This document shows positions 6,224 to 19,882 of a DNA stretch of 64,000 nt, one piece after another. The notes under the pieces were generated by a model. It searched no databases. It worked only from the letters and a program-made list of their open reading frames with translations, and was not told the DNA's origin. Position 1 is the stretch's first letter; every line of letters begins with the position of its first letter. The stretch is from Shinella zoogloeoides (lineage in GTDB: Bacteria; Pseudomonadota; Alphaproteobacteria; Rhizobiales; Rhizobiaceae), in NCBI RefSeq assembly GCF_020883495.1, contig NZ_CP086610.1, positions 973,501 through 1,037,500 of the forward strand, in the 5' to 3' direction. A program made the position numbers and the translations under genes.

Positions 6224-6271
6224 CTGGGTCTCCTTGGGAAGGCGCTCGCCTTCCGATACGATTATCGGTCC

Positions 6272-11195: not shown

Positions 11196-14100
11196 ATGTT
11201 CAAACGAATGCAGAAGCGCTGGGCGCCGGTCTTCTTCGTGTCTGTCGCTGTCGTTGTGTTCAACGCGGGCATCGCTGAGGCGAAACGCGTTGCGCTGCTG
11301 ATCGGCAACCAGAAATACGAAGAGACGGCCCAGCTCAACAATCCTGCGAACGACGTGGAGCTGATGCGCGCCTCGTTCGAGGAGGCGGGTTTCGACAGCG
11401 TCAAGACCGTGTTCGATCTCGACCGCGGCGCCATGGTCAAGGCGCTGCGCGAATTCGAGGACGAGGCGGTGGATGCGGAAATGGCCGTCGTCTACTATTC
11501 CGGCCATGCCATGGAGATGAACGGGGTCAATTACCTCATTCCCGTCGATGCGGCGCTGAAGAGCGACCGCGACGTCGAGGACGAAAGCGTCGCCATCGAC
11601 CGCGTGCAGCGCTCGCTGGAGGGTGCGAAGAAGCTGAAGCTCTTCATTCTCGACGCCTGCCGCAATAATCCCTTCGCCCAGTCGATGGCGCGTTCCATCG
11701 GCACCCGCGCCGTGACGCGCGGCCTTGCCCGCGTCGAGCCGGAATCGGCCGACACGCTGATCGCCTTCGCCTCCAAGGCCGGCACGGTGGCGCTGGACGG
11801 GGAGGGGAAGAACAGCCCCTTCGCCACCGCGCTCTCGAAATACCTGACGGAACCGGGCCTCGATGTGCGCATCGCGCTCGGCAAGGTGCGCGACGAGGTG
11901 GTGGAAGCCACCAACCGCGAGCAGGAACCCTTCGTCTACGGTTCGCTCGGCGGCGCGCAGATCTTCCTGAACATCAAGGAAGTGAACATCAACATCACCA
12001 ACAGCGGCAACACGCAGGAGGTCTCGCCGAACGGCCAGTCCGAGGCGGCGGCCGATTGGCAGAACATCCGCGACCTTGCGGACGAGGACTTGATCAACGC
12101 CTTCATCGCCAAGCACGGCAAGGACCCCGTCTACAAGATGCTGGCGGAAAAGAAGCTCGCCAGCCTCAAGGAAGCCACTGAGAAGGAGGGCCAGGACGCG
12201 GCGGGCATCGCCTGGGAGGCCCTGAAGGAATCGACCGACGCGGCCGCCCTCCAGCGCTTCATCGAGCGCTATCCCGACAGCCGGCACCGCAGCGATGCCG
12301 AACATCTCATCGCCGCGCTGGAGCCGAAGAAGGGGCTCAGCGTCGATGTCGCCTCCAAGGAAACGGCCGCCTCGCGCGATTGCTTCCTTCTGGCCGGCGA
12401 GCCGCAGTCGCTGCCCGGCTTCATGGGCGTCAACTTCCTGAAGATCGACGCCAAGCGGGCGCTCACCGCCTGCGCGCAGGCCGTCAACGAGAACCCGTCC
12501 GACGGCATGCTCGTGAACCTGCTCGGCCGCGCCTACGATGCCGACCGCAACTATGTCGAAGCCCGCCGCACCTATGAGAAGGCGATCGAGCTGGGCAATA
12601 TGTATGCGCTCACCAACCTTGCCTGGTTCTCGATCTACGGCACGGACGGTCCCGTCGATGTGCCGAAGGGCCTGTCGATGTTCGAGAAGGGCGCCACCGC
12701 CGGCAATTCCTATGCCCAGGCCTCGCTCGGCTGGATCTACCGCGAAGGCTACGGCGGCACGCGCCAGGACTATAACGAGGCGGTGAAGTGGTATCAGCAG
12801 TCGGCCAACCAGGGCTATGCCAATGCCATGGCGACGATGGGCTGGTTCTACCGCGAAGGCCTCGGCGTCTCGCAGGATTACGTCCAGTCGCTCGCCTGGT
12901 ATCGCAAGGCGGCCGATGCCGGCGACGCCAACGCCATGTCGTCGCTCGGCTGGGCCTACCAGAATGGCCTCGGCACGCCGCAGGATTATGCGGAAGCGAA
13001 GGTCTGGTACGAGAAGGCCGCCAATATCGGCGATTCCTATTCCATGGCCTCGCTCGCCTGGCTCTATGATGTCGGCAACGGCGTGAAGCAGGACTATGTG
13101 GAGGCTCGCTACTGGTATGAGAAGGCCGCCAATGCCGGCAGCGCCTATGCCATGGGCAATCTCTCCCGTCTCTACGATCAGGGCCTCGGCACGCCGGCCG
13201 ATGCGAAGGAGGCTGTCCGCTGGGCCGCCGCCAGCATCGAGAGCGGCGACCCCACCAAGCTGAAGGAGCTGAAGGACACCCCCGGCAACTTCACCGTCGC
13301 CTTCCGTCAGGAAATGCAGAATCTCCTGCGCGAGCGCGGCTATTACAGCGGCACGTCGGATGGCGAGTTCGGCGCGGCGACGCTGGCGGCGCTCGACAAG
13401 CTCGCCACTGGCCGTAACGACAGTGCATCGCTGTCGACGACGACCAGCACCGCCGGCCAGTCGGCGGTCGTCCTCAGCGGTTCGGACACCGAGCAATGCT
13501 ACGAGCTTGCGGGCGAACCGAATGTGCGCCCGGGCTTCGTCGGCAAGCTCTTCGCGCAGATCGACTACGGTCGCGCGATCCCCGTTTGCGAAGCGGCGCT
13601 CGCCGCCAATCCGTCGGACAATTCGATCCGCAACATGCTGGGCCGTGCCCACGACGCCGCGCGCAACTATCCGAAGGCGCGCGAAAACTACCAGAAGGCG
13701 GCCGACGAGGGGAACCTCTACGCCCTGACGAACCTTGCCTGGTATTCGATCTATGGCACGGACGGTGCGGTCGACATGGCCAAGGGCACCCGCATGTTCG
13801 AGCAGGCCTCCAATGCCGGCAACGCCTATGCGCAGGCCTCGCTCGGCTGGCTCTATCGTGAGGGCTATAACGGCACGCGCAAGGACTATGGCGAGGCCTT
13901 CAAGTGGTACAGCAAGGCGGCCGAGCAGGGCTATGCCAACGGCCAGGCCACGATGGGCTGGTTCTACCGCGAGGGTCTGGGCACGACGCGCGACTACAAT
14001 CTCTCGCTCGAATGGTACAAGAAGGGCGCGGAGGGCGGCGACGTCAACGCCATGTCCTCGGTCGGCTACGCCTACCAGTCCGGCCTCGGCGTCGCGGTCG

Positions 14101-14534
14101 ATTATGTCGAGGCGCGCAAATGGTACGAGATGGCCGCCGCGCAGAACGACTACTATTCGATGGCCTCCATCGGCTGGCTTTACGATGCCGGCAACGGCGT
14201 GAAGCAGGACTATGCGCAGGCCCGCGACTGGTATGAGAAGGCGGCCAATGGCGGCAACACCTACGCCATGGGCAATCTCTCGCGCCTCTACGATCAGGGC
14301 CTTGGCACCCGCGCCAACGCCCGGGAGGCCGCCCGCTGGGCCGCCGCCAGCATCGAGGGCGGCGATCAGGCCAAGCTGCAGGAACTCAAGGGCGCGCCGG
14401 CAAACTTTACGCCGCAGTTCCGCAAGGAATTCCAGCAGCTCCTGAAGTCCCGCGGCTACTACGACGGCCCCATCGACGGAGACTTCGGCGCCTCGACCCA
14501 AAACGCCATAGACCGTCTCGCCGCCCGCACCTGA
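11196..14534 (+). CDS. Secreted caspase-like protein with duplicated SEL1/peptidoglycan-binding modules
   Basis: 1112 residues. A signal peptide (residues 1-29, ending GIAEA) suggests export. Residues 30-260 form a C14 caspase/metacaspase-like domain, with the catalytic pair visible: His104 in YYSGHAMEMNG and Cys155 in FILDACRNNPF. A helical linker follows. Two copies of one module come next: residues 395-745 and 767-1112. Each has a Cys-containing TPR-like head (LAGEP, then NPSD and LGRA), SEL1 repeats of about 36 residues (LGW-YREG, QDY-EA--WY-KAA), and a short peptidoglycan-binding-like tail (RGYY, DG-FGA-T). The start has GGAGG 7 nt upstream. It is monocistronic and divergent from iolR. 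The substrate is unknown; domain calls are strong, the function inferred. Confidence 0.85.
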   Translation: MFKRMQKRWAPVFFVSVAVVVFNAGIAEAKRVALLIGNQKYEETAQLNNPANDVELMRASFEEAGFDSVKTVFDLDRGAMVKALREFEDEAVDAEMAVVYYSGHAMEMNGVNYLIPVDAALKSDRDVEDESVAIDRVQRSLEGAKKLKLFILDACRNNPFAQSMARSIGTRAVTRGLARVEPESADTLIAFASKAGTVALDGEGKNSPFATALSKYLTEPGLDVRIALGKVRDEVVEATNREQEPFVYGSLGGAQIFLNIKEVNINITNSGNTQEVSPNGQSEAAADWQNIRDLADEDLINAFIAKHGKDPVYKMLAEKKLASLKEATEKEGQDAAGIAWEALKESTDAAALQRFIERYPDSRHRSDAEHLIAALEPKKGLSVDVASKETAASRDCFLLAGEPQSLPGFMGVNFLKIDAKRALTACAQAVNENPSDGMLVNLLGRAYDADRNYVEARRTYEKAIELGNMYALTNLAWFSIYGTDGPVDVPKGLSMFEKGATAGNSYAQASLGWIYREGYGGTRQDYNEAVKWYQQSANQGYANAMATMGWFYREGLGVSQDYVQSLAWYRKAADAGDANAMSSLGWAYQNGLGTPQDYAEAKVWYEKAANIGDSYSMASLAWLYDVGNGVKQDYVEARYWYEKAANAGSAYAMGNLSRLYDQGLGTPADAKEAVRWAAASIESGDPTKLKELKDTPGNFTVAFRQEMQNLLRERGYYSGTSDGEFGAATLAALDKLATGRNDSASLSTTTSTAGQSAVVLSGSDTEQCYELAGEPNVRPGFVGKLFAQIDYGRAIPVCEAALAANPSDNSIRNMLGRAHDAARNYPKARENYQKAADEGNLYALTNLAWYSIYGTDGAVDMAKGTRMFEQASNAGNAYAQASLGWLYREGYNGTRKDYGEAFKWYSKAAEQGYANGQATMGWFYREGLGTTRDYNLSLEWYKKGAEGGDVNAMSSVGYAYQSGLGVAVDYVEARKWYEMAAAQNDYYSMASIGWLYDAGNGVKQDYAQARDWYEKAANGGNTYAMGNLSRLYDQGLGTRANAREAARWAAASIEGGDQAKLQELKGAPANFTPQFRKEFQQLLKSRGYYDGPIDGDFGASTQNAIDRLAART

Positions 14535-15346: not shown

Positions 15347-15436
15347 TGGCGGAGAAGAAGGGATTCGAACCCTCGATACCGTTTCCGGTATACTCCCTTA
15401 GCAGGGGAGCGCCTTCGACCACTCGGCCACCTCTCC
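15347..15436 (-). tRNA. tRNA-Ser(GCT)
   Basis: A 90-nt class II tRNA with CCA encoded. Acceptor strands are 15430-15436 and 15351-15357 (one G-U pair), with discriminator G. The anticodon loop CTGCTAA puts GCT at 15400-15402, reading AGC and AGU serine codons. There is a long variable arm and a normal GGTTCGAATCC T-arm. A tyrosine recombinase lies on its 5' side rather than at its 3' end, so it is not an obvious attachment site. Confidence 0.97.
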
Positions 15437-15720: not shown

Positions 15721-16635
15721 CTACTTCGCCGTGCTGCGCGCCGCGCGCTCGAGGATCGGCACGCAGATGTCGAGGTCGCCGGAGGCCAGATGCGCATAGC
15801 GCATGGTCATCTGCAGCGTTTGATGGCCAAGCCAGGTCTGGACGCGCCGGATGTCGATGCCGCCCTGGACGAGCCGGGAGGCGCAGGTGTGACGCAGGAT
15901 GTGCGGAACGACGTCCGGTTCCGTCCCCAGCCCGACTTCCTGCTTCGCCTCATTCCAGGCAGCCCGGAACTGCGCCTGGACGATGTTTGCGAACGGCCCG
16001 CGCTTTCGCTTCTCGCAAGCCTGGATCGCGGCAGATGCCCGCTCGGTGAGAGGGACGGAGCGGCTCTTGCCGCTCTTCGTCAGCCAGAAGGTGACGCGCT
16101 CGCCCTGTATGTCCTGCCAGCGAAGGCCGATGCCCTCGCCGAGCCGCGCGCCGGTATCGATAAGGAAGACACAGAACCGGCCGTAGAGGTCGGATTTCTC
16201 CGAAATGGCTGCGAAAAGCCGCGCTTCCTCCTCCGGTTCCAGAAAGCGGACACGCCCCGCCTTCTCCTTGAGGCGCTTGAACTCAGGCAAGCTGCGGATA
16301 TCGCCCATCTTGTAGGCCTTGCGCAGGAGCTTGCTCAGCGCGGCCATCTTCCGGTTGATCGTGGCATTACTGTTGCCGCGCTGACGCAGGCCGGCGACCA
16401 GCGTGTCCATCATCGCATCGGTGAACGCAGAAAACTCCGCGCCGAGCAGAATCTCATCGAGTTCGCCGATAAAGGATGTCACATTGTATTTGTGAGAACC
16501 CGGTTCCCAGAGGATGTCGACGTAACGGTTCAGCAGAAGGTCGAGGCGTGTGCGCCGGGCGAAGCCTCGCTGCATATCGTCCTGAAAATTGTACTTCAGG
16601 CTGTATGTCCCAGCCAATCGAATGGTTTGCCCCAT
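15721..16635 (-). CDS. Tyrosine recombinase/integrase (lone)
   Basis: A 304-residue phage-integrase-family protein. An N-terminal SAM-like core-binding region covers about residues 20-110. The catalytic domain has all expected residues: Arg164 (DTGARLGE), Lys187 (TKSGKSR), His245 and Arg248 (HILRHT), His271 (WLGH) and Tyr280 (MRYAHL). The fold is therefore likely active. The start is the ATG of MGQTIRL with AAGGGG upstream; longer frames add non-homologous residues. No excisionase, phage or conjugation gene is nearby. It starts 93 bp from the end of the porin inverted repeat. It could be a relic of an old insertion, a chromosomal XerC-like paralog, or a dedicated recombinase for the neighbouring locus. 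Confidence 0.88.
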   Translation of the reverse strand: MGQTIRLAGTYSLKYNFQDDMQRGFARRTRLDLLLNRYVDILWEPGSHKYNVTSFIGELDEILLGAEFSAFTDAMMDTLVAGLRQRGNSNATINRKMAALSKLLRKAYKMGDIRSLPEFKRLKEKAGRVRFLEPEEEARLFAAISEKSDLYGRFCVFLIDTGARLGEGIGLRWQDIQGERVTFWLTKSGKSRSVPLTERASAAIQACEKRKRGPFANIVQAQFRAAWNEAKQEVGLGTEPDVVPHILRHTCASRLVQGGIDIRRVQTWLGHQTLQMTMRYAHLASGDLDICVPILERAARSTAK

Positions 16636-16733
16636 GCTAACCCCTTCTGCGTGCAGGATAATCGCGTATTGGTTGCATCTAAGGGTTACGAAAGTGCTAT
16701 CGATTCCCTCCTTATAAAGAGGGGGTAGAAACG

Positions 16734-16763
16734 AAAAACCCGCAGCCTCGAAGAGACTGCGGG
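16734..16763 (-). terminator. Terminator of porin copy 1
   Basis: Stem CCCGCAG/CTGCGGG extended by three more pairs around a TTC loop, then TTTTT on the minus strand. It is inside the inverted-repeat arm. Confidence 0.8.
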
Positions 16764-16786
16764 TCAATCTTTAGCTCAACTTCAGG

Positions 16787-17911
16787 TTAGAAGTTGCGCT
16801 GCAGACGAAGGAAGCCGCGGGTGAAGTCTTCGTCGGCTGCGCCCGAAACGTCAACGTTGTTGTAGTCAACCGTTGCGAGGAGGTCGAGACCTTCGACGAC
16901 CTGGTAGCCGACGGTCAGACCAACGCGCCACATGTCAGCGTCGCTGTCGAAGCCGAGGTCACCGAAGTACTGAGCTGCCGGGGTGATCGTGAGCTTTTCC
17001 GTTGCCTTGAAGGCGTAGGAAGCAGCAACGGTCCACTCGGAAGCAACCCAGTAAGCGTTCGGGTCGGAAGCCCAGATGCCAGCGAGCTGGAAGGTGCCCG
17101 GGCCAACGTCAGCCGACAGGATAGCGCGGATTGCGCCTTCGTCAGCCCAACCGTCGTAACCGCCGAGAACGTCGAGGTTCACGCCACCGAGCGAGAAGCC
17201 AACCGTGGCGGCAACGCCAAGGTCATGATGGGTGCCCAGAAGCGGAAGCGTAACCGGAATGCCGCCGAGCGCATCCGTAACTTCGTCCTGGCTCCAACGA
17301 CCCGAGAGTTCGTCGAGCGAGATGCCTGCACGCCAGGTGCCGCCATCGTAGGTGTAAGCGATGGAGTCGAAATTGGTCTCATTGCCAAGCGAATCGTTTT
17401 CGCCGTTGATGCCGCTATCCCACCAGCTGTAGAAACGACCGACCTTGAAGCCACCGAGTTCGATGAAGGCTTCGTCGATGAAGAAGCTGTTATCGGAACG
17501 GCCATAGTTTACACTGACGTCTTCAGTAAGGCCGATCGACCGATTCTTGCCGCCGGAAGCTGCTTCGATGTTTACGAAGCCGCGGAGCGTACCAAGTTCG
17601 GTGTCCGAACGTGCGTCGAGGTTGATGTCAACCAGCGTGTGAGCATCCCAATCCGAGCGATCGTTGTCCTTACCCTGGAACACGTCGCCGATTTCGTCGC
17701 GACCGAACGAGGTCTGGAAGCGAACGAAGCCGCCGATCTTGAGGCAGGTTTCGGTGCCCGGGATGTAGAAGAAGCCGGTGCCGAAGGCGTCGCAGACGCG
17801 AACGTATTCCATGGGTTCCGGTTCGGCAGCGACGATAGCGTCGGCGGCCTGTGCGCCGGAAACTGCTGCGAGAGCCGCAGCGGAGCCGATGAGAAGGCTC
17901 TTGATGTTCAT
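16787..17911 (-). CDS. ropA: Outer-membrane porin, RopA/Omp2 family (copy 1)
   Basis: A 374-residue alphaproteobacterial porin (Porin_2 family). The signal peptide is residues 1-22 (ending SGAQA). The mature N-terminus has EYVRVCDAFGTGFFYIPG and TCLKIGGFVRF, a family hallmark with two cysteines. Alternating amphipathic beta strands follow, and the chain ends in Phe (LRLQRNF), the usual outer-membrane assembly signal. It forms general diffusion pores, as in Rhizobium RopA and Brucella Omp2. The GGAGG ribosome site is 9 nt before the ATG. The copy at 18618-19742 encodes the identical protein. The upstream region differs between the copies, so regulation may differ. Confidence 0.95.
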   Translation of the reverse strand: MNIKSLLIGSAAALAAVSGAQAADAIVAAEPEPMEYVRVCDAFGTGFFYIPGTETCLKIGGFVRFQTSFGRDEIGDVFQGKDNDRSDWDAHTLVDINLDARSDTELGTLRGFVNIEAASGGKNRSIGLTEDVSVNYGRSDNSFFIDEAFIELGGFKVGRFYSWWDSGINGENDSLGNETNFDSIAYTYDGGTWRAGISLDELSGRWSQDEVTDALGGIPVTLPLLGTHHDLGVAATVGFSLGGVNLDVLGGYDGWADEGAIRAILSADVGPGTFQLAGIWASDPNAYWVASEWTVAASYAFKATEKLTITPAAQYFGDLGFDSDADMWRVGLTVGYQVVEGLDLLATVDYNNVDVSGAADEDFTRGFLRLQRNF

Positions 17912-18617
17912 TTCTGACCTCCAGTCAAAAACGGCCGGACGTGCGTTTCGCGCGCTGGTGATCAACTTCTGGCGGACACACTCTATATATATAAGGTGAG
18001 GTCGGGGGGCGGTCTCGACATGGGAGAAGCGCGCGCCGACCAATCACGGCACGTTTCCTCCTCTTCCCGGGGAGAAGGGAAGACGATCGCGGGCCGCGGC
18101 TATCGTCGCGCAGGCCAGGATTCGAGATGAGCCTCCTCTTCAGCGTGAGGCCACTGCTGCGACTCGGTGTCGAATCGCAAGCCGGGCGAGGGCGGCGATT
18201 CTCGCGGCCGACACCGTTTCATGGGGGAGAGGGATGAGGCCACAGTCCGAAAAAAGGCCCGCTCTCCCCCGTCAAGAACCGGTTTTGCCCCGTTCCTGCC
18301 GGGTTTGTGGCAAGGGGAATGAACGGATGGGCTAAGCTAAGTGCCCGCTTCATAAGGCTTTTTGTTAATGATCTATAAACTTTTAGCAATCTGCCCGGCC
18401 ATTTTGTGTCCTTTGCGCAACAGCGCTGGGCGAAGGCTGCCACAAATCCCGTCCTGTTTCAGTTTGGAGATTGCTTACCGGGGCGCGTCTTGTATTTTCA
18501 GCTTCGGAAGCAGGGGCGGTTGATCGTCCGCTTCCTGAACTTGGGGATGGGGCAGGGAACGCTGTCCTTCAGCAAAAAACCCAGACCCGTTTGAAACTTT
18601 TTGACTGGAGGTCAGAA
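17912..18617. other. Divergent promoter region between the two porin genes (contains the 666-bp unique segment 17932-18597)
   Basis: No convincing gene. The copy 1 side has an AT-rich run (TATATATATA near 17984-17993) that could be its -10 region. The copy 2 side has a long leader with an AT-rich patch near 18360-18395. A short stretch near 18220-18270 is C/G-rich with GGGGGAGAGGGATGAGG, resembling the edge of a rhizobial palindromic repeat. The two promoter sides are not similar to each other. Confidence 0.6.
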
Positions 18618-19742
18618 ATGAACATCAAGAGCCTTCTCATCGGCTCCGCTGCGGCTCTCGCAGCAGTTTCCGGCGCACAGGCCGCCGACGCTATCGTCGC
18701 TGCCGAACCGGAACCCATGGAATACGTTCGCGTCTGCGACGCCTTCGGCACCGGCTTCTTCTACATCCCGGGCACCGAAACCTGCCTCAAGATCGGCGGC
18801 TTCGTTCGCTTCCAGACCTCGTTCGGTCGCGACGAAATCGGCGACGTGTTCCAGGGTAAGGACAACGATCGCTCGGATTGGGATGCTCACACGCTGGTTG
18901 ACATCAACCTCGACGCACGTTCGGACACCGAACTTGGTACGCTCCGCGGCTTCGTAAACATCGAAGCAGCTTCCGGCGGCAAGAATCGGTCGATCGGCCT
19001 TACTGAAGACGTCAGTGTAAACTATGGCCGTTCCGATAACAGCTTCTTCATCGACGAAGCCTTCATCGAACTCGGTGGCTTCAAGGTCGGTCGTTTCTAC
19101 AGCTGGTGGGATAGCGGCATCAACGGCGAAAACGATTCGCTTGGCAATGAGACCAATTTCGACTCCATCGCTTACACCTACGATGGCGGCACCTGGCGTG
19201 CAGGCATCTCGCTCGACGAACTCTCGGGTCGTTGGAGCCAGGACGAAGTTACGGATGCGCTCGGCGGCATTCCGGTTACGCTTCCGCTTCTGGGCACCCA
19301 TCATGACCTTGGCGTTGCCGCCACGGTTGGCTTCTCGCTCGGTGGCGTGAACCTCGACGTTCTCGGCGGTTACGACGGTTGGGCTGACGAAGGCGCAATC
19401 CGCGCTATCCTGTCGGCTGACGTTGGCCCGGGCACCTTCCAGCTCGCTGGCATCTGGGCTTCCGACCCGAACGCTTACTGGGTTGCTTCCGAGTGGACCG
19501 TTGCTGCTTCCTACGCCTTCAAGGCAACGGAAAAGCTCACGATCACCCCGGCAGCTCAGTACTTCGGTGACCTCGGCTTCGACAGCGACGCTGACATGTG
19601 GCGCGTTGGTCTGACCGTCGGCTACCAGGTCGTCGAAGGTCTCGACCTCCTCGCAACGGTTGACTACAACAACGTTGACGTTTCGGGCGCAGCCGACGAA
19701 GACTTCACCCGCGGCTTCCTTCGTCTGCAGCGCAACTTCTAA
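18618..19742 (+). CDS. ropA: Outer-membrane porin, RopA/Omp2 family (copy 2)
   Basis: Encodes the same 374 residues as the gene at 16787-17911, with the same signal peptide, cysteine pair and C-terminal Phe. The ribosome site and terminator are also identical. It is transcribed away from copy 1 under a different upstream sequence with a longer apparent leader. In-frame codons further upstream (from 18471) lie in the unique segment, are not shared with copy 1, and are not counted as coding. Identity without any silent difference implies very recent duplication or ongoing gene conversion, as known for Brucella omp2a/omp2b. Confidence 0.95.
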   Translation: MNIKSLLIGSAAALAAVSGAQAADAIVAAEPEPMEYVRVCDAFGTGFFYIPGTETCLKIGGFVRFQTSFGRDEIGDVFQGKDNDRSDWDAHTLVDINLDARSDTELGTLRGFVNIEAASGGKNRSIGLTEDVSVNYGRSDNSFFIDEAFIELGGFKVGRFYSWWDSGINGENDSLGNETNFDSIAYTYDGGTWRAGISLDELSGRWSQDEVTDALGGIPVTLPLLGTHHDLGVAATVGFSLGGVNLDVLGGYDGWADEGAIRAILSADVGPGTFQLAGIWASDPNAYWVASEWTVAASYAFKATEKLTITPAAQYFGDLGFDSDADMWRVGLTVGYQVVEGLDLLATVDYNNVDVSGAADEDFTRGFLRLQRNF

Positions 19743-19765
19743 CCTGAAGTTGAGCTAAAGATTGA

Positions 19766-19795
19766 CCCGCAGTCTCTTCGAGGCTGCGGGTTTTT
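19766..19795 (+). terminator. Terminator of porin copy 2
   Basis: Same hairpin as for copy 1: 7-bp CCCGCAG/CTGCGGG stem plus three inner pairs, then TTTTTCGTTTTT. Confidence 0.8.
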
Positions 19796-19882
19796 CGTTT
19801 TTGGCGATTTGATCATGGCCAGCGGTGAATGCCTGACGTGACAGGCTTCCCTTATTTGGGGTCTTACGAATGGAATGAGCCG

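Follow-up and report, generated by a model that had tools for sequence, protein, structure and literature searches.

The window analysed here is a stretch of 64,000 nt from the Shinella zoogloeoides assembly GCF_020883495.1 (NZ_CP086610.1, positions 973,501–1,037,500, forward strand), and all coordinates are given relative to it. It contains two Porin_2 genes in opposite orientation around a short centre, designated A (left copy) and B (right copy), each lying in one arm of a long inverted repeat, together with a gene for a tyrosine recombinase (int) adjacent to copy A (Table 1). Related material is cited as genomes (G, one locus per species) or loci (L).

Table 1. Features of the twin-porin locus in window coordinates.
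Feature	Position	Strand	Evidence or remark
Tyrosine recombinase (int), 304 aa; downstream of A and co-directional with it	15721..16635	-	Pfam Phage_integrase 1.9e-27
Left arm of perfect inverted repeat; very probably the converted copy, B-type terminator	16729..17931	-	Repeat search, terminator comparison
Terminator of copy A, B type	16737..16765	-	Points to copying of B over A
Porin copy A, Porin_2, 374 aa; int-side copy, without conserved leader in this assembly	16787..17911	-	
Core TGACTGGAGGTCA of copy A, 13 bp, includes ribosome site; proposed crossover site	17915..17927	-	
Proposed invertible centre between cores, 674 bp	17928..18601	.	Reversed in G003 and in other genera
Leader half of centre, ends CCCAGACCCGTTTGAAACTTTT	18285..18601	+	Similarity to porin upstream regions of int-less relatives
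Right arm of perfect inverted repeat; very probably the donor copy	18598..19800	+	Repeat search, terminator comparison
Core TGACTGGAGGTCA of copy B, 13 bp, includes ribosome site; proposed crossover site	18602..18614	+	
Porin copy B, Porin_2, 374 aa; same sequence as A, preceded by conserved leader	18618..19742	+	Porin_2 1.9e-97
Terminator of copy B	19764..19792	+	Terminator comparison

A repeat search found the two arms to be 1203 nt each, 100% complementary and separated by 666 nt, which confirms the first-pass annotation of two identical porin genes forming a perfect inverted repeat and rules out a chance repeat. Ribosome site, whole coding sequence and terminator are carried by both arms without difference, as had been claimed, and the arm limits likewise bear out the statement that identity ends 20 bp before the start codon and just past the terminator, since it runs from 20 bp 5' of each ATG to the T-tract. 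The further claim that only the expressed unit is shared holds for this strain but not for the sister species compared, in which it is mainly the 5' block that the copies have in common while their bodies and terminators differ. The neighbouring recombinase, the conserved sites lying inverted at the two start codons and the occurrence of the centre both ways round among relatives had been overlooked. Across the whole genome, DNA matches to the full arm occur at these two places only, the third match being of 36 bases at 86%; full Porin_2 matches are confined to the same two genes, with three further short matches at 20–23 bits. Both copies lie on one contig (C1) of an assembly of 5 contigs and 4.85 Mb, and the outer flanks of A and B both have their match at the corresponding positions of G019, a sister species with two porin copies identical to each other at 957/1089 sites. 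Since both flanks match a genome with two distinct copies, the two-gene locus is real; the exact identity of the arms, though not the locus itself, could be an assembly effect.

The arms differ at 0/1203 bp, compared with 119/1089 sites between the same gene and its counterpart in the sister species, and the earlier suggestion of very recent conversion between the copies is thereby supported. Its direction is indicated by the terminators, which differ between A and B in the sister species; in the window, A is followed by a B-type terminator, after which A's own flank resumes, with 84% identity over 144 nt to the A flank of G019. The position of a B-type terminator behind A, ahead of A's own flank, points to B as the source, and we are confident that B has recently been copied over A by gene conversion. 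In a tree of the porins, A and B copies are intermixed, with 8 label changes, a number as low in 452 of 500 shuffles. Terminator, arm identity and tree are together what sequence exchange between inverted Porin_2 copies would leave.

By sequence, the solved structures closest to the recombinase are 5c6k, an integrase that we take to be that of P2, and HP1 integrase. It has its Pfam domain and catalytic residues in common with these phage integrases and with XerC/D, and R164, K187, H245, R248, H271 and Y280 are each kept by 97% or more of 83 distinct homologues. Identity with XerC or XerD was rejected, as NCBIfam scores fall far under the cut-offs (87.2 vs 335.15 bits for XerC, 84.5 vs 329.6 bits for XerD). 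Comparison with G019 gave dN 0.040 and dS 0.402 (dN/dS ~0.1), and the gene is intact and under purifying selection; an adjoining recombinase that is catalytically complete, as predicted from its residues, is what an inversion switch would have. Unlike the phage integrases it is tied to porins, and no phage genes were recognised among its neighbours.

Recombinase distribution is patchy (66/199, 12/33 and 11/21 genomes). From the family sample, where it occurs in 66/199 genomes, the window's own locus and those of 60 more genomes were retrieved, with G063, G078, G144, G175 and G206 left out. A porin lies in the stretch beside the recombinase homologue in 57 of these 60; in the other three the contig stops 0.2–0.5 kb past the porin-facing end of int. 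Within the genus, where int was called present at E <= 1e-40, all 11 genomes with int have two porins at the locus and all 10 without it have one there (one-table odds 2.8e-6, kinship not corrected for). Recombinase identity is 74–92% in the genus and 63–65% in g70 (Sinorhizobium/Ensifer), and because it drops with host relatedness, inheritance looks vertical. The tRNA-Ser was discarded as a general integration site, for the Sinorhizobium recombinase sits between two convergent porins.

The starts of both porins carry a conserved 13-bp core. Tallies of core and orientation were made on the window and the G loci, one per species, comprising 82 int loci, 62 of them with both core sites; among the 20 incomplete ones, 15 lack the int-side site within the stretch and 5 have no other. 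In the 62 complete loci the core is present at both porin starts with 0–1 mismatch and is inverted in 61, the arrangement being divergent in 45, convergent in 16 and direct in 1. The leader marker was recorded at just one side in 55 of them (54 inverted, 1 direct), at both in 1 and at neither in 6; convergent loci have their leader outside the porin–int–porin block. Over its last 266–317 bp the leader has 82–93% identity to the upstream regions of the single porins in 10 int-less genus members. A sigma-70 scan returned no promoter-like site in the window's centre, its single site falling inside the recombinase gene, and an Rfam search returned the tRNA plus one match under gathering score only. 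In the left half of the core, palindromy is only modestly higher at the silent copy, where it averages 3.3 of 6, than next to the leader, where it averages 2.5 of 6.

Short inverted sites thus bound the central segment, as an inversion switch would have them; the core, however, also occurs at porins without int. It is exact at 139/151 porins in int loci and at 54/76 int-less porins (duplicates between L loci and G genomes kept, porins without a settable start dropped), and so is no mark of recombinase loci only. Second copies in int-less loci have a decayed core in L068, L072, L076, L082, L086 and L087 (3–5 mismatches) and in G199 (3 mismatches), and an exact one in L062, L080 and L092. As core and 5' block are kept at int-less porins too, the core serves at least in part as a translation signal. 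For the 5' block, taken as 75 nt from the ATG, the comparison covered 42 distinct centres, drawn from 47 divergent loci in which the cores are exact: the block is identical between the two copies in 25/42 genomes (mean 97.8%), whereas 19/3444 comparisons between genomes are identical (mean 82.7%). Against the nearest other genome the mean is 95.3%, with identity in 13/42, so that some of the agreement within genomes is due simply to constraint.

Orientation of the centre varies among relatives. The leader belongs to the non-int copy in 36–40 of the 45 divergent loci and stands on the int side in 5, from 4 genera, in which, with the recombinase as reference, the centre is reversed. The G003 centre is reversed with respect to the other genus centres compared, both of its ends being reversed relative to G019, and that of L151 is reversed with respect to L156 of the same genus. 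Both orientations are therefore found, between species only (G003 against its genus, L151 against L156, and L120, L122 and L134), and reversed centres occur within two genera. The L021/G003 reversal involves a gene pair only ~71% identical. Locus L129 has mixed centre directions and was left out of the flip count. In g70, int has the same orientation in 12/12 genomes examined and no flips of the three-gene block were seen among them; this uniformity, with the strong orientation bias, suggests that flipping is rare. Inverted pairs are not restricted to recombinase loci, for int-less G199 has a divergent porin pair at the slt–dapA–smpB locus without a close recombinase homologue.

One comparison bears on insertion. 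Between G010 (occupied) and int-less G005 (empty), homology on the right side begins again at the core (6262 to 4020, with the cores themselves at 6265 and 4023), and the porin–recombinase unit of G010 measures 2252 bp core to core, with direct cores. The occupied/empty boundary thus falls at the core on the right side, in a single pair that is 10–13% divergent; on the left it cannot be placed, owing to homology between the first porin and the resident one. This direct case has the look of an insertable cassette, not of a switch, and a direct arrangement is suggested also in L094 and L028. In the window the sites around the unit are inverted.

We regard the locus as probably a recombinase-driven porin switch, or else a cassette open to exchange, with arms recently homogenised in this strain. 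A single leader or promoter segment would lie between two divergent porins, bounded by inverted cores that overlap the ribosome site; the adjoining tyrosine recombinase would recombine the cores and flip the segment, so that the leader would drive either B, the state in this assembly, or A, with the recombinase gene behind A. Copying of B over A would have extended from the 5' core through B's terminator, with the result that both switch states would now yield the same protein. At the level of sequence this proposal is founded on the architecture, the B-type terminator behind A, the reversed centres in relatives, the co-evolution of the 5' blocks and the intact recombinase. That the recombinase is the agent, the core the crossover site and the leader the promoter, and that flipping takes place within a population, we infer; inversion as known here is between species.

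Identity of the arms invites two simpler accounts. Duplication of one porin by the assembler would produce it directly, and the locus seems hard to assemble, since several relatives' contigs end in or near the int-adjacent porin; such an artefact is nonetheless very improbable in a contiguous assembly whose flanks on both sides are orthologous to those of G019, and copies as unlike as those of G019 would presumably not collapse. Perfect identity would equally follow had a lone porin of this strain only recently been duplicated in inverted orientation, an account that we find scarcely credible, given divergent pairs beside int in 9 further genus members and the ancestral 3' flank that A retains.

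Two other readings concern the role of the recombinase. The locus may be an ordinary inverted pair homogenised by RecA-type conversion, as in Brucella omp2a/omp2b, with an unrelated recombinase and reversed centres as by-products of crossover between the arms. Exchange between the copies is indeed well supported by tree and arm identity, conversion of copies is reported for Brucella in PMC7050475, and long inverted homology is enough for inversion, so that the centre could be flipped without an enzyme. We consider this unlikely in view of the regular association of int with porins, its purifying selection, the match of its presence and absence in the genus, the reversal between poorly matching genes in L021/G003 and the insertion boundary at the core. 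The recombinase and the porin upstream of it might instead make up a small integrative cassette, which would insert where a resident porin begins, bring the incoming porin under the resident leader and be open to later loss, the inverted forms being frozen insertion products and no working switch. The G010/G005 unit, the suggestive arrangements in L094 and L028, the patchy distribution and the kinship to phage integrases favour such a cassette, but the near-universal inversion of the cores, the centre found both ways round and the apparently vertical descent of the recombinase make it unlikely. More broadly, and tentatively, the porin switch may be part of a dedicated Rhizobiaceae recombinase system for porins, in which the ribosome site would serve as crossover core, a shared leader would be flipped or a porin–recombinase cassette swapped at direct sites, and arm conversion would renew the silent copy; we hold this to be somewhat less probable than not. 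On this view, with the recombinase gene placed behind the copy that commonly has no leader, the minority state might raise the recombinase's own expression and so revert. Divergent pairs that lack the recombinase, as in G199, would then be relics locked in one state, a description that may also apply to Brucella omp2.

The parallel with Brucella omp2a/omp2b drawn in the first-pass annotation is apt: the main text of PMC7050475 describes two genes in opposite orientation, ~830 bp apart, subject to gene conversion and fully homogenised in some species, with only omp2b reported as expressed. The words 'recombinase', 'integrase', 'inversion' and 'promoter' are absent from that main text, and a 1.7-kb inversion described for marine Brucella in PMC3161862 concerns omp25b, not omp2. 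In contrast to the omp2 locus as published, the window has an adjoining intact recombinase and a centre that occurs both ways round among relatives.

Inversion switches of surface proteins by tyrosine recombinases include Mycoplasma vsa/HvsR, Lactobacillus slp and Dichelobacter omp1. RecV of C. difficile, as described in PMC5903667, similarly switches cwpV and flagella; the inversion survey given there lists 0/4 alphaproteobacterial samples. As in those switches, the recombinase adjoins a control segment with inverted sites, and alternative surface-protein states are proposed; the present case differs in that the proposed site overlaps the porin ribosome site, the hosts are Rhizobiaceae and inversion is between species only. 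Among the papers listed in literature searches, judged by title and the opening of the abstract, no description of a porin DNA-inversion switch was found for this bacterial group.

RopA1 and RopA2 of Agrobacterium/Sinorhizobium are Rhizobiaceae porins, as are those of the window, and presumably belong to the same Pfam family. In the three Agrobacterium-named loci with the slt anchor (L062, L068, L076) the porins are on the same strand rather than inverted, unlike those of the window, and no recombinase was found in these stretches. Porins are diffusion channels. According to PMC10132094, a phage-resistant clone of Agrobacterium had acquired a ropA1–ropA2 fusion, and RopA1 is described there as a receptor of S. 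meliloti phages. If the proposed switch is real, it would mean phase variation of permeability and phage sensitivity in soil and symbiotic bacteria, and would provide a way in which inverted porin genes could exchange sequence.

The two porin genes of the window, copy A on the recombinase side and copy B on the right, form a real inverted repeat, as the first-pass annotation had claimed: a repeat search returned two arms of 1203 bp, each the exact reverse complement of the other, separated by 666 bp. Each arm comprises 20 bp of leader sequence with the ribosome site, a gene for a 374-aa porin (Porin_2, 1.9e-97) and a terminator. The window lies on contig C1 of a 5-contig, 4.85-Mb genome, in which these two arms are the only full-length matches, the three other Porin_2 matches being short (20–23 bits). 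Neighbouring genes, other than porin, recombinase and tRNA, were named from their translations. The caspase-like TPR protein has internal repeats that match one another and occupies the same place in several relatives.

Features of the porin locus in gene order (window coordinates)
Feature	Position	Strand	Remark
TPR/caspase-like protein	11196-14534	+	1112 aa
tRNA-Ser(GCT)	15347-15436	-	adjoins recombinase
Tyrosine recombinase	15721-16635	-	
Left arm	16729-17931		
Porin copy A	16787-17911	-	
Right arm	18598-19800		
Porin copy B	18618-19742	+	
Alpha/beta hydrolase		-	
Lytic transglycosylase		-	
dapA		+	
smpB		+	

The gene beside copy A encodes a tyrosine recombinase (Phage_integrase, 1.9e-27) whose nearest solved structures by sequence are phage integrases, and which scores far under the cut-offs for both XerC and XerD. 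R164, K187, H245, R248, H271 and Y280, the catalytic residues of this family, are each kept by 97% or more of the 83 distinct homologues compared, and comparison with the nearest relative, G019 (dN 0.040, dS 0.402), indicates constraint on the gene. Within the genus the recombinase occurs in 11 of 21 genomes (E ≤ 1e-40); each of these carries a porin pair at the locus, divergent in 10 and direct in 1, and all ten genomes lacking it have a single porin there. In the family sample it was found in 66 of 199 genomes (E ≤ 1e-50), and 57 of the 60 recombinase genomes examined, the window not counted, have a porin within the stretch; in the remaining three (loci L121, L160 and L161) the contig stops 0.2–0.5 kb past the recombinase gene on the side where the porin would lie. 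Read by eye, the porin upstream of the recombinase is co-directional with it wherever that side is present (it is cut off in L116). Stop codons lie inside the recombinase match in G062, G063, G095, G107, G144, G177, G192 and G231, possibly decaying copies. Contigs of recombinase loci also break within or beside the adjacent porin (e.g. L121, L123, L130, L133, L139, L145, L146, L160, L161), which suggests that assemblies fail at porin arms that are nearly identical or of mixed orientation. Taking the transglycosylase gene as reference, the direction of tRNA-Ser(GCT) is reversed in five of the seven recombinase-less genus loci in which it was found (L103, L106, L107, L110 and L112; not L109 or L114) and in none of five recombinase-bearing ones (the window, L097, L098, L101, L104).

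Both porin starts carry a 13-bp core, TGACTGGAGGTCA, with the ribosome site inside it. We surveyed 82 recombinase-bearing loci (the window with 10 more genus members, 60 family genomes and 11 further genomes), and both sites were present with at most one mismatch in 62. Of these, 45 are divergent and one is direct, and in 16 the porins converge on a recombinase lying between them. In the window's arrangement the segment between the two porin starts, the centre, contains a conserved leader, scored across loci by the marker string CAGACC. By this marker the leader falls at the porin with no recombinase behind it in 36 divergent and 13 convergent loci, and at the recombinase-side porin in five divergent loci and the direct one; six loci (four divergent, two convergent) were flagged on neither side and one (L174) on both. 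The four unflagged divergent loci are leader-like by eye on the side away from the recombinase. Orientation is biased, with the leader on that side in 36–40 of 45 divergent loci. The last 266–317 bp of the window's centre are 82–93% identical to the region upstream of the single porin in the 10 recombinase-less genus members, and this half is recognisable at many recombinase-less Sinorhizobium/Ensifer loci; because of this homology, it looks like a putative native porin promoter and leader, and a sigma-70 scan of the window's leader half returned no site.

The centre is found in both orientations. That of G003 (locus L099, the same as L021; Shinella fusca) is reversed against the other genus centres compared, matching the window in reverse with 428 bits and G019 with both ends reversed (344 bp at 89% and 85 bp at 81%). 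In another genus, the centre of L151 is reversed against that of L156 (526 bp, 77%). The centres of L120, L122 and L134 are reversed relative to most others; L129, of mixed directions, was left out of this count. Among 12 Sinorhizobium/Ensifer genomes no flip was seen.

The best evidence that the core may serve as a recombination site comes from a single pair, about 10–13% divergent, in which an occupied and an empty porin locus can be compared. G010 has leader, porin, recombinase, core and porin on one strand, and its relative G005 has leader, core and porin. Homology on the right restarts at 6262 in G010 and 4020 in G005, 3 bases ahead of cores at 6265 and 4023, and the core-to-core unit in G010, with direct cores, measures 2252 bp. 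Its left boundary cannot be placed, the first porin being homologous to the resident one; in the porin tree, the second porin of G010 groups with the single porin of G005, as expected if the first had arrived with the recombinase. In Neorhizobium galegae bv. officinalis (L094), two porins, the recombinase and two further porins share one strand throughout, which would fit the capture of a two-porin module.

Several controls complicate this picture. The core is exact in 54 of 76 porins of recombinase-less loci, against 139 of 151 in recombinase loci (duplicates included), so it also serves translation or regulation in its own right. Among recombinase-less second copies, the core has decayed by 3–5 mismatches in L068, L072, L076, L082, L086 and L087 and is exact in L062, L080 and L092. 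G199 has a divergent pair at the slt-dapA-smpB locus (L187:7023-10070), in which one core is exact and its partner carries 3 mismatches. The genome has no close recombinase, its best match (1.2e-8) lying away from the porins; the pair is possibly a locked relic. The 5' ends of the two copies evolve in concert, and constraint explains part of their identity. Over 75 nt from the ATG, the copies agree fully in 25 of 42 genomes (mean 97.8%), against a mean of 82.7% and 19 identities in 3444 comparisons between genomes; the single nearest other genome is also similar (mean 95.3%, identical in 13 of 42). Copy-to-copy identity drops beyond about 180 nt in the genus pairs compared, and changes common to both copies yet differing between species, a check proposed in the first-pass annotation, do occur, chiefly towards the 5' end.

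Recent gene conversion, the earlier explanation for the identical arms, is upheld, and its direction can be given as one-way, B over A. In G019 (locus L096) the two porin genes are identical at 957 of 1089 positions and their terminators are unlike. Window copy A has a B-type terminator (arm-end 32 nt 94% identical to the B terminator of L096), just past which its own flank returns (84% over 144 nt against the A flank of L096); the copied tract thus extends from the 5' core past B's terminator and ends in a short T-rich stretch. Since the arms show no difference in 1203 bp, against 119 in 1089 between them and the B copy of G019, the copying is recent, and by a rule-of-three estimate its age would be less than about 2–3% of the divergence to G019. 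The porin-body tree of the genus does not separate A from B copies (8 label changes each, against a shuffled mean of 7.0), so that exchange between copies is recurrent. One-way conversion is an already known process, and among published porin pairs Brucella omp2a/omp2b, the parallel drawn earlier, comes closest (PMC7050475); that paper's main text uses none of the words recombinase, integrase, inversion and promoter.

In the mechanism we propose, the recombinase would exchange strands at both cores. With inverted cores the leader would switch between the two porins through a flip of the centre in the window arrangement, or of the porin–recombinase–porin block in Sinorhizobium; direct cores would allow a porin–recombinase unit to be inserted or lost. 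Arm-to-arm conversion is a separate process, which in the window strain made both outputs identical. In inverted arrangements the recombinase lies behind the porin that usually lacks the leader; speculatively, once the leader reaches this porin, transcription reading through into the recombinase gene could increase its expression and so promote reversion, a possible reason for the orientation bias. A survey of invertible segments reports none in four alphaproteobacterial samples (PMC5903667), a phage-resistant Agrobacterium clone is reported to have a ropA1-ropA2 fusion, and RopA1 is stated to be a phage receptor in S. meliloti (both PMC10132094). Judged by titles and the start of abstracts, in a literature from which most subscription papers fell outside coverage, no description of a recombinase-linked porin switch in Rhizobiaceae was found among the papers listed, 20 of 47 in one search. 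On comparative grounds, the locus as a whole resembles an invertible porin switch linked to a recombinase, or else an exchangeable cassette.
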